DNA of 33,151 bases. It comes from Haliea sp. GTDB lineage: Bacteria > Pseudomonadota > Gammaproteobacteria > Pseudomonadales > Halieaceae. The notes under the pieces are model-generated. The model saw nothing but the letters and a program-made list of their open reading frames with translations. It was not told the origin of the DNA and ran no database searches. The DNA is taken from positions 1 through 33,151 of the forward strand of contig JAHEBL010000035.1 in the NCBI GenBank assembly GCA_024642265.1, written 5' to 3'. Position numbers and translations under genes: made by a program. Each line of letters starts with the position of its first letter. Positions within the stretch are counted from its first letter, which is position 1. Below, piece by piece: positions 16,183-17,979 of this stretch.

Positions 16183-16211
16183 TGGACACCCGCGAGCCAT
16201 TCCGATATAAA
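16183..16211 (+). promoter_or_regulatory. Sigma-70 promoter for the gene at 16282
   Basis: TGGACA (16183-16188), a 17-nt spacer, then TATAAA (16206-16211): each box is one mismatch from consensus with ideal spacing. The expected transcript start is near 16218, giving a leader of about 65 nt. Confidence 0.65.
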
Positions 16212-16212
16212 T

Positions 16213-16258
16213 AGCCAAACGGCTTGGGTGGAAATTCCGCTTCGGCTGTTTTCAGCCG
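16213..16258 (+). promoter_or_regulatory. Two small hairpins in the leader of the gene at 16282
   Basis: AGCC-AAAC-GGCT (16213-16224) and CGGCTG-TTTT-CAGCCG (16243-16258) are perfect small inverted repeats. They share the GGCT/AGCC word, so alternative pairing between them is possible. The second ends about 24 bp before the start codon. Confidence 0.4.
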
Positions 16259-16281: not shown

Positions 16282-17979
16282 ATGTATCGCTACAGTGTCG
16301 ATAACGCCGTAACTTATACCTCAGAAGATTTCGTCCTGTTCAGGGAATCTCCCTTCGCCTGCTGGATGGAACGACTCACCCTGGAGAACCCCGACCACGG
16401 TATTCCGCCCGACCTCGGCAGCGTGCCGCCCGGCCGCAGCATCGAGCGCCAGGACGATATGGCAGACACCTTGCGAGCCCAGGGCAAGGATGTCTGCCTG
16501 ATCGACTGGGAGGCGGACGAGGCCTCCCGGCGCAGTGCCACCCTGGAAGCCATGCGCGGGGGATCCGATTTCATCGTGAATGGCCAGTTGGCGCTGGGGC
16601 CACTGTCCGGAGCAGCCAACCTGCTGGTGCGTACCAGCGGGTATTCTGAGCTGGGCGATTTTCTTTACATACCCTGCGACACCCAGGCCAGGAGCAATCT
16701 GCATTCGGCTTTCCGGCTGTGTTTTCTCGCGGATCTGCTGCACAGCCTGCAGGGTCAGTTGCCCCCCCAGATGCTGATTATCCGGGGCGGTGACGACCTG
16801 GTTCCTCTCCAGACCGACAATTACATCTATCATTACAGGGCGGTCAAACAGCGCTTTATGGAGGCCATGCGTGGTTTCCGCAAGCACCGCATGCCCGATC
16901 CCGCGGAATCCTCACATTTTGGCCGCTGGTCTGATTGTGCGCACGAGGTGCTCAAGCAGCGCCTGCTTGGGGAGGAACGGGAACCGGGCGAGGGCGTCGA
17001 TGAGGATTACGCTGAACCTCTGCGCAAGGCCGTTGGCACTGCCGTCACCGGCAGTGCTGCTGCCTTCAGCCCGGGCGACAGCCAACAGGCCGCCAGCCAC
17101 AGTGGCCACCCTGAGGGCGTGACAGCGTCTGCAGCAGCGCACTCCTCAACCGGACAGGTCGCAGCCGTCGCCAGCACGCAGGGCGCCGCCGTGGGCAGTT
17201 TTACCCTTGCCGAGCAGGCGCGGATGCTCAAGCCGGGCACTTACAAACCCGGTCCCGGGGTTTTTCGTCTGGGCCCTCCGCGCGCCGGCAGGGCCGCGCA
17301 GGGCGAACCTGACCGCGAGCGGCGTAGCCAGGAGGCAGCCACAGAATCGGCGAATGAGGCGATTGCCAGCAGCGAAGCCCCGTCATCACCCGAAACAGCC
17401 AGGCCCAAATATAACCGTCGCGCATCGGATGCCGCGCTGCAGAATCTGGAATTTATCGGCAGCAGTGCGCAGATGCCGGGTATCGGTCTCGATACGGCCC
17501 CGCCAGCAGAACTGCCGTCGCTGGTCAACGGCGCACCGTCTCCCAGCCTCCGCGATCCGCGCGCGCGGACGGGTGAGCGGGCAAAAGCAGCTGTCGGGCC
17601 TGGCCCCGGCCCGGTCCGGAAGACTCCCGCGGCCACGGAGCCACGCCCGGCGCAAGTCAGGGAGCCCGCCAGTCCGCCCCCGCCAGCGCTCGATCGCGCA
17701 CCATTGCCCGATCGCTCGAGCATCGATATGGATGACGCCTATCCCGCGTCTCCGCCCGCGGTGTTGAAGACCCACAGCGATGAAAAGCCGGCCCAGACAC
17801 TACTGGACGACAGTGAGGTCCGACACGGTTTTGGCCAGGCAGCAAAACACGGGAAGCCTGGTCAAATCTCCCGGCCCTTCAGTGACAGTATTTTCAACGA
17901 CAGGATTTTTACTGAGGGCTCTACGCAGAAGAGCAGCTTCAGCAGCAACCTGATTACCAGCGAAGACTACGAGGACTGA
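16282..17979 (+). CDS. Degenerate RecB-like (PD-(D/E)XK, TM0106-like) domain with long disordered tail
   Basis: A 565-residue cytosolic protein. Residues ~10-200 resemble the RecB-like putative nucleases of the TM0106 type: YTSEDFVLFRESPFACWMERL at the start, TLEAMRGGSDFIVNGQLALG, SGAANLLVR, LYIPCDTQARS, then LLHSLQGQLPPQMLIIRGG. Active relatives read G-x-A-D-F-L and D-T-K at the metal site. Here these are GAANLL (Asn113) and D-T-Q (Asp133, Gln135), so two catalytic positions are lost and cleavage is unlikely. Residues ~235-540 are Pro/Ala/Ser/Arg-rich low complexity with islands such as LAEQARMLKPGTYKPGPGVFRLG. An acidic end, SNLITSEDYED, closes the protein. The domain assignment is from memory of family motifs. 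It is a single gene with its own promoter. Confidence 0.6.
   Translation: MYRYSVDNAVTYTSEDFVLFRESPFACWMERLTLENPDHGIPPDLGSVPPGRSIERQDDMADTLRAQGKDVCLIDWEADEASRRSATLEAMRGGSDFIVNGQLALGPLSGAANLLVRTSGYSELGDFLYIPCDTQARSNLHSAFRLCFLADLLHSLQGQLPPQMLIIRGGDDLVPLQTDNYIYHYRAVKQRFMEAMRGFRKHRMPDPAESSHFGRWSDCAHEVLKQRLLGEEREPGEGVDEDYAEPLRKAVGTAVTGSAAAFSPGDSQQAASHSGHPEGVTASAAAHSSTGQVAAVASTQGAAVGSFTLAEQARMLKPGTYKPGPGVFRLGPPRAGRAAQGEPDRERRSQEAATESANEAIASSEAPSSPETARPKYNRRASDAALQNLEFIGSSAQMPGIGLDTAPPAELPSLVNGAPSPSLRDPRARTGERAKAAVGPGPGPVRKTPAATEPRPAQVREPASPPPPALDRAPLPDRSSIDMDDAYPASPPAVLKTHSDEKPAQTLLDDSEVRHGFGQAAKHGKPGQISRPFSDSIFNDRIFTEGSTQKSSFSSNLITSEDYED

Follow-up and report, generated by a model that had tools for sequence, protein, structure and literature searches.

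What role does a bacterial gene retain when it encodes a nuclease-like domain with a lost catalytic site, followed by a long disordered tail? Such a gene (hereafter the pseudo-nuclease gene) lies in a 33,151-nucleotide stretch of Haliea sp. DNA, the window, which is an entire 33-kb contig. The frame at 16282-17979 on the + strand is open from an ATG start and encodes 565 amino acids, which confirms the intact long frame described in an earlier note on this DNA. No Pfam family matches the 565-residue protein at E ≤ 1, and a comparison of 12 family members with Pfam returned three weak names (best E 0.037). The features discussed below are collected in Table 1.

Table 1. Coordinates of features of the pseudo-nuclease gene and its upstream region in the window.
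Feature	Positions	Strand	Basis
Promoter-like element: TGGACA (16183-16188), 17-nt spacer, TATAAA (16206-16211)	16183-16211	+	Upstream alignment
Possible leader hairpin in presumed 5' UTR, CAAACGGC ... GCTGTTTT	16216-16252	+	Pairing in 22 sequences
Predicted inactivated PD-(D/E)XK (Cas4/RecB/TM0106-type) domain, residues 1-235	16282-16986	+	pLDDT, Foldseek, Z, dN/dS
Former metal/catalytic positions Asn113 (16618-16620), Asp133 (16678-16680), Gln135 (16684-16686)	16618-16686	+	46-orthologue alignment
Disordered Pro/Ala/Ser-rich tail, residues 236-565	16987-17976	+	Mostly pLDDT <55 per 10-residue block
Tail motif 1, LAEQARML, residues 309-316, predicted short helix	17206-17229	+	Regex 27/47 tails; hold-out 26/33
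Tail motif 2, LQNLEFI, residues 386-392	17437-17457	+	Regex 40/47 tails; hold-out 29/33
C-terminal motif, FSSNLIT, residues 553-559	17938-17958	+	44/46 orthologues; hold-out 27/33

The protein has a single NCBIfam match, TIGR03491 (TM0106 family RecB-like putative nuclease; E 5.5e-13, residues 77-199), which scores 48.7 bits against a curated cut-off of 97.45. The TM0106-type RecB-like layout claimed in the earlier note is thus a real resemblance, though one that falls under the curated cut-off. An AlphaFold2 model built from a 53-row alignment has pLDDT values of 85-98 per 10-residue block over residues 1-230, and the model of a short orthologue (L033) has nearly identical secondary structure. 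The top Foldseek matches are two Cas4 structures (4r5q, E 1e-4; 8d3l_I, E 3.2e-4), the only ones to pass 0.001, followed by Dna2 (E 1.1e-3); the match is moderate, with TM-scores on the Cas4 targets of 0.46 and 0.55 and an rmsd above 7. VIA-align ranked Cas4 8d3l_I highest (Z 12.0 over 195 aligned residues; Cas4 4r5q has Z 9.0), with MGME1, EXO5, AdnA, AddB and Dna2 following, down to Z 7, a list to be read with the tool's own warning that middling Z values are common. A sequence search of solved structures with a 12-row profile gave nothing credible (two matches, E 0.33 and 0.42). The Foldseek and VIA-align rankings point to the RecB/Cas4 branch of PD-(D/E)XK proteins, and the core alpha-beta fold of that superfamily is present in the predicted model. 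A Cas4/RecB-type PD-(D/E)XK fold is thereby predicted for residues 1-235 with high confidence, and the structural comparison proposed in the earlier note yielded the fold match that it had anticipated.

Cas4, the best structural match to the predicted model, has four conserved cysteines that hold an Fe-S cluster. The pseudo-nuclease differs from it in lacking both the catalytic set and a conserved four-cysteine cluster. Across 46 orthologues, cysteine is found at position 132 in 46, at 219 in 45 and at 147 in 39; no other column reaches 20, and only C132 and C219 are conserved at 95% or more. A scan of nine neighbouring frames in the window found no Cas family.

Where PD-(D/E)XK nucleases have the metal-binding Asp and the D/E-x-K motif, the window has N113, D133 and Q135, in agreement with the earlier note. 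We extended the alignment it proposed to 46 orthologues (a set without L039 and L071, which are cut by contig ends, the partial L068 and the second copies L064-L066). Position 135 is Q in 33 of these, R in 5, E in 2, T in 2 and D, H, A or C in one each; Lys occurs in none. At position 113 we found N in 30, Q in 6, D in 6, H in 2, E in 1 and G in 1. Position 133 is largely kept (D 35, E 10, N 1), so that 45 of 46 have D or E. The RecB His and Q-x(3)-Y motifs, which we take to lie at positions 56, 145 and 149, are likewise missing: His56 and Tyr149 occur in 0/46 orthologues each, and the former Gln145 is R in 45 and S in 1. By comparison, H56, D113, D133, K135, Q145 and Y149 are all kept in 13 of 13 active relatives from outside the clade, a selection among those fetched that comprises eleven full long frames and two truncated at a contig end.

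A strict D-x(15-25)-[DE]-x-K pattern is present in one orthologue (L053) versus all 13 of these relatives. A loose, shifted D...[DE]-x-K pattern appears in 24 of the 46 because Lys137 occurs in 27 (with Arg137 in another 6); Asp113 is found in none of the 27 Lys137 rows. The earlier note had held that an Asp and Lys intact at shifted positions would count against it. That arrangement holds for the single orthologue with the strict pattern and does not hold for those with Lys137, all of which are without Asp113. The residue counts at positions 56, 113, 135, 145 and 149 indicate that the canonical site is dead throughout the 46-orthologue set, even though the change at position 113 is not always the same. 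Dead catalysis thus survives from the earlier reading, whereas Asp-to-Asn as its lesion is not universal: the changes common to the whole set are the losses of Lys135, His and Tyr, with Gln-to-Arg nearly so.

We next consider where this domain came from. Residues 4-227 align with TM0106 helicase-type proteins (TIGR03491/COG2251) at about 28-37% identity. COG2251 proteins are described in one account as combining a DUF83 domain that resembles PD-(D/E)XK nucleases with an RNase H-like domain and, in many cases, AAA domains in tandem (PMC3985635). An intact relative, L079, has RNase_H_2 and AAA_11/AAA_12 domains; the pseudo-nuclease has no RNase H-like or helicase part (no Pfam match in its 565 residues). 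It differs from TM0106 proteins further in its missing catalytic residues, its long disordered tail and its score below the family cut-off.

In a 71-row tree built without the near-copies L046, L048 and L049, 50 dead-type rows form a single branch with support of 100/100 (43 main copies, 6 labelled as second copies and 1 remote row from G020). One row labelled as a second copy, L071, is a main copy by its gene order. The dead branch has a stem of 2.62 changes per column and is nested among intact helicase-type proteins; together with the sub-threshold TIGR03491 match, this nesting supports common descent with the TIGR03491 family. Support is 94/86, without a star, for the branch by which the dead clade joins Microbulbifer and two helicases from the window's family. 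Because this branch is unstarred and the stem is long, the exact place of the dead clade among intact members is uncertain. The remote row (L014) is placed with little certainty, on an end branch of 3.99, but its locus (L135) shows the gene order of the others.

By eye, TM0106 helicases fall into one subtype with Fe-S-like cysteines (L119, L117) and another that has SPFASWM near the N-terminus instead (L120, L121), a label coined in this analysis. The dead clade groups with the SPFASWM subtype in the tree and has near-invariant residues in common with it, among them S23-P24-F25-A26, W28-M29, Q157-G158, P207 and W216. From the tree and the gene order, the simplest history would be that the N-terminal domain separated once, was then inactivated and has since been inherited vertically.

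Intact TM0106-type proteins are infrequent in the window's family: TIGR03491 matches above the cut-off were identified in 4 of 140 genomes, and the window's genome is not among them. Plasmid records matching intact relatives number 37 of 72,556, and the ten listed of these 37 are annotated as TM0106 family nuclease. Hosts among the matches listed include Piscirickettsia, Rhizobium, Vibrio and Legionella. Because intact relatives sit on plasmids, the active TM0106-type family appears to be mobile. A phage origin of the pseudo-nuclease was rejected, as it has no match in 50,697 phage records (E ≤ 1e-3) and no PHROGs family (E ≤ 0.1). Assignment to a defence family was rejected too, given no PADLOC match to the 565-residue protein at E ≤ 0.1; the helicase part of L079 does match PADLOC models (MkoA and others).

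Several observations suggest that the dead gene is maintained. We identified a dead-type homologue in 56 of the 140 genomes searched within the window's family, a count that takes 57 matches, excludes G420 (whose sole match is a 1156-residue frame) and includes some partial genes. The gene is present in 5 of 5 genomes of the window's own genus and in 8 of 8 in each of two other groups (g11 and g135). We call the whole group Halieaceae after its named members; many of the orthologues come from metagenome bins assigned just to Gammaproteobacteria. In 12 of 12 chosen pairs the domain has a dN/dS of 0.036-0.111, against 0.18-0.36 in the tail (Nei-Gojobori with Jukes-Cantor correction, some pairs being near silent-site saturation with pS up to 0.73).

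Domain residues conserved at 95% or more yet rare in the active relatives include T33, N36, H39, G40, R83, R117, L128, P131, C132, R145, F148, R200, K201, H202 and C219. P131, C132 and K201 are found in 46/46 orthologues, R145, H202 and C219 in 45/46 each and R117 and R200 in 44/46 each. R145 occupies the position of the former Gln, and P131-C132 stands immediately before Asp133. Such near-invariant residues are what a new function would look like. Since the domain dN/dS is low and these residues are present, the gene, as judged from sequence comparison, is not a decaying pseudogene. The retained role proposed in the earlier note gains support from this purifying selection and from the conserved tail motifs described below. 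That the protein is both non-catalytic and functional is, on this comparative evidence, well supported. The net charge of the domain is -7 in the window and averages -5.3 in orthologues, with the 13 active relatives more negative (-11.3); a negative domain charge does not favour DNA binding.

The tail makes up the remainder of the protein. Its composition (47% P/A/S/G in the window protein) and mostly low pLDDT agree with the Pro/Ala/Ser-rich disorder claimed earlier, and the acidic end was also correctly read, the final 20 residues of the window protein having a net charge of -3. The length past residue 232 ranges from 112 to 472 residues across the 46 orthologues. Within this variable region, regular expressions composed after inspecting the sequences recur in 47 tails (LAxQAxxL in 27, LxxLxFI in 40 and HPLDxxGF in 19, against shuffle means of 0.04, 0.27 and 0.0), a hindsight that the following hold-out test counters only in part. 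Profiles built from 10 orthologues were scored on 33 others, and p ≤ 0.01 relative to shuffled tails was reached by the C-terminal motif in 27, by LxxLxFI in 29 and by LAEQAR in 26. The near-copies L046, L048 and L049 were left out of the hold-out, and L037 is absent from the 47-tail scan (the end of its N-terminal domain was not recognised). The conserved-looking islands that the earlier note pointed to, and whose conservation it proposed to check, thus recur in 26 to 29 of 33 held-out orthologues. In the AlphaFold2 model, motif 1 is helical at residues 309-314, and block 311-320 has a pLDDT of 73. In the model of orthologue L033, residues 281-300, which hold HPLDxxGF, reach a pLDDT of 65-67, above the remaining tail.

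The C-terminal motif, [FI][SDGN]xx[LIV]xT (F-S-x-S-L-x-T-like), is found in 44 of 46 orthologues. It lies 11-17 residues from the C-terminal end in 41 of these 44, and 13 residues from it in the window, where its own score (p=0.014) misses p ≤ 0.01. This near-constant distance from the end suggests that the motif behaves like a C-terminal docking peptide. Elsewhere in five genomes of the genus, its profile gave four matches besides the pseudo-nuclease gene, all weak (E 0.30 to 3.6); the profile contains this gene's own motifs, and the self-match arises by construction.

The gene neighbourhood is largely fixed. In 37 of the 46 main-copy loci that have at least 1.8 kb of upstream sequence, a same-strand amidohydrolase gene lies no more than 600 nt upstream (L021 by a partial match). 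In the other nine loci, an acyl-CoA dehydrogenase is directly upstream in five (L045, L055, L058, L059, L071), an extra gene intervenes in two (L035, L050) and neither arrangement is found in two (L022, L053). The extra frame of L035 and L050, between the amidohydrolase and pseudo-nuclease genes, is about 630-695 residues long. Downstream, an epoxide hydrolase is encoded on the opposite strand in 43 of 52 loci, a set that includes short flanks and three second copies. A domain scan of the window identified acyl-CoA dehydrogenases, the amidohydrolase and the epoxide hydrolase as neighbours. These metabolic genes give no hint of a DNA or scaffold role.

The gap upstream of the gene holds a conserved TGGACA-17-TATAAA-like element and a possible leader hairpin. 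T-A-T-A-A is invariant in a chosen set of 16 aligned upstream regions, and a TGGACA-like hexamer precedes it in most. A scan for consensus sigma-70 sites listed no site at this element, which we infer from the alignment to be a candidate promoter. The leader alignment comprises 22 of 26 upstream regions (L035, L040, L041 and L052, in which the element is not evident, were left out). In these 22 chosen sequences, 88.6% of cells pair in the hairpin versus 32-42% when the partner is slid by 1-3 columns. Covariation is weak: shuffles equalled the count of two-sided pairs in 149 of 500 cases and the score in 18 of 500. Of nine sequences folded, seven have the consensus hairpin as their minimum-energy structure, the exceptions being the window and L020, and no Rfam family matches it. 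In the window, the hairpin runs CAAACGGC...GCTGTTT, after the promoter-like element (16183-16252 together). With both elements in this gap, the pseudo-nuclease gene is probably transcribed from a promoter of its own rather than just by read-through from the enzyme genes. A regulon sharing the leader dyad was also considered and rejected: of 12 matches in five genomes, four are the gene's own leader, and the other eight compare with seven in a reversed control.

We identified a divergent second copy of the pseudo-nuclease in five genomes (L129 6790-9519, L130 5893-8598 and L064-L066). The next gene downstream of it encodes an HDOD-GGDEF protein in every case, and a FlgN-type gene comes after that. 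The four contigs that are long enough continue with FlgA-type and other flagellar genes, and a FlgM-type gene is found in two. Pfam names at this locus (HDOD, GGDEF, FlgN, FlgM, FlgA, rod protein) come from L129 only; other genes nearby are presumably FlgC to FlgE. The link of the second copy to flagellar and HDOD-GGDEF genes is suggestive.

Other genes accompany the second copy. A small conserved protein is encoded upstream of it (L129 6353-6769; related frames in L130 5495-5875 and in L064), and the L129 protein has a lipoprotein-like start, an HELAH motif and no Pfam match. In G330 and G331, the second copy also adjoins a region that resembles a lasso-peptide cluster (L129 2403-6034; L130 1502-5187). 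In L129, where Pfam names were obtained, this region encodes a transglutaminase-core protein and, below the Pfam cut-off, an HPr-kinase-like protein; the lasso-peptide reading, like that of an asparagine synthase, is our assumption.

We favour, with moderate confidence, a reading of the pseudo-nuclease as a domesticated, non-catalytic anchor or adaptor. In an ancestor of part of Halieaceae, the N-terminal domain of a TM0106-type protein would have split from the RNase H-like and helicase parts and then, in this presumed order, lost its metal site. The domain would have acquired a long flexible tail and newly fixed residues (P131-C132, R117, R145 in place of the former Gln, and the basic patch R200-K201-H202). 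The folded part may now serve as an anchor that binds one ligand; since the invariant residues include basic ones, this ligand could plausibly be nucleic acid, a nucleotide or a phosphorylated partner. The tail may recruit partner proteins through short linear motifs, chiefly the C-terminal F-S-x-S-L-x-T-like peptide. The computed basis of this explanation consists of the predicted fold, the relatedness, the catalytic loss, the purifying selection, the tail motifs, the locus and the promoter-like element. A broader version is improbable as a whole. It would have a mobile nuclease-helicase donate the domain to the chromosome of a single marine lineage, where the protein turned into a new type of core regulatory hub. 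The dead site would have been rebuilt as a pocket for a nucleotide or phosphate ligand, the three to four tail motifs would pass that signal on to partner proteins, and the second copy would have joined a flagellar/c-di-GMP locus.

The retention of Asp/Glu133 and the frequent Lys137 are more than a pure loss of metal chemistry requires, and they count against a non-catalytic protein. They would fit an enzyme, a nuclease or other hydrolase, whose rearranged site uses Asp/Glu133 with Lys137, Arg145, His202 or Cys132. Catalytic residues are known to migrate in PD-(D/E)XK families, Arg137 adds to the basic residues at that position, and Cys132, Arg145 and Lys201 are near-invariant. The losses weigh more heavily: Asp113 is gone from 40 of 46 orthologues, Lys135, His, Tyr and Gln from every one, and Lys137 never coincides with Asp113, which makes a surviving enzyme quite unlikely. 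We find a decaying remnant or a passenger frame kept open by chance hardly credible; the vanished catalytic residues and the low-complexity, variable tail are what one would expect of it, and it is contradicted by the domain dN/dS in all 12 pairs, by the presence of the gene throughout its own genus, g11 and g135 and by the conserved promoter-like element.

The second-copy loci raise a different prospect, that of a signalling adaptor for c-di-GMP or flagellar control that works with HDOD-GGDEF-type proteins. The gene order is constant in all five genomes, each of which has FlgI. However, FlgI is missing from some genomes that carry the main copy, among them G178 (one contig, 100% complete) and the genome of the window (fragmented, 242 contigs), and a flagellar role of the main copy was rejected on this ground. 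A close HDOD-GGDEF homologue (E ≤ 1e-60) is found in just 8 of 140 genomes; in one of these, G401, the gene stands beside FlgN- and FlgM-like frames, and no second copy was seen by eye within 4.5 kb. The second copies also lack the C-terminal tail motif (0/5), and such an adaptor is, on balance, unlikely. Intact relatives occur on plasmids, and a copy without catalysis might in theory block its partner. The pseudo-nuclease could on these grounds act on intact TM0106 helicases, or on mobile elements that encode them, as a dominant-negative or antidote-type partner. We regard this as very unlikely, the few above-cut-off matches in the family meaning that a resident target is usually absent.

The favoured anchor or adaptor has a precedent in kind. 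RecC, in the account given in PMC1185551, carries an inactivated RecB-type nuclease domain that is reused for DNA guidance. The C-terminal domain of RecC and the pseudo-nuclease have in common a RecB-family fold, a lost metal site and reuse, the new role being putative here. They differ in setting: RecC acts within a helicase-nuclease complex, as one of its subunits, and the pseudo-nuclease is a separate gene with a disordered tail and metabolic flanking genes. The kind is therefore already known. The protein is not described among the matches listed in a literature search on TM0106/COG2251/TIGR03491, inactive RecB nucleases, Halieaceae nucleases and pseudoenzyme scaffolds, and none of these matches showed a dead version that stands alone as a chromosomal gene throughout a clade and has a motif-bearing tail.

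Dead domains of the RecB type are known, in the account cited above, inside larger machines such as RecC; here one appears to stand free of its helicase, as a separate gene under strong selection. It can be traced across a marine bacterial family, and its intact relatives are still found on plasmids. The pseudo-nuclease thus offers a clean case for how a dead active site acquires a new ligand, and its short C-terminal peptide could be used directly as bait for the partner.
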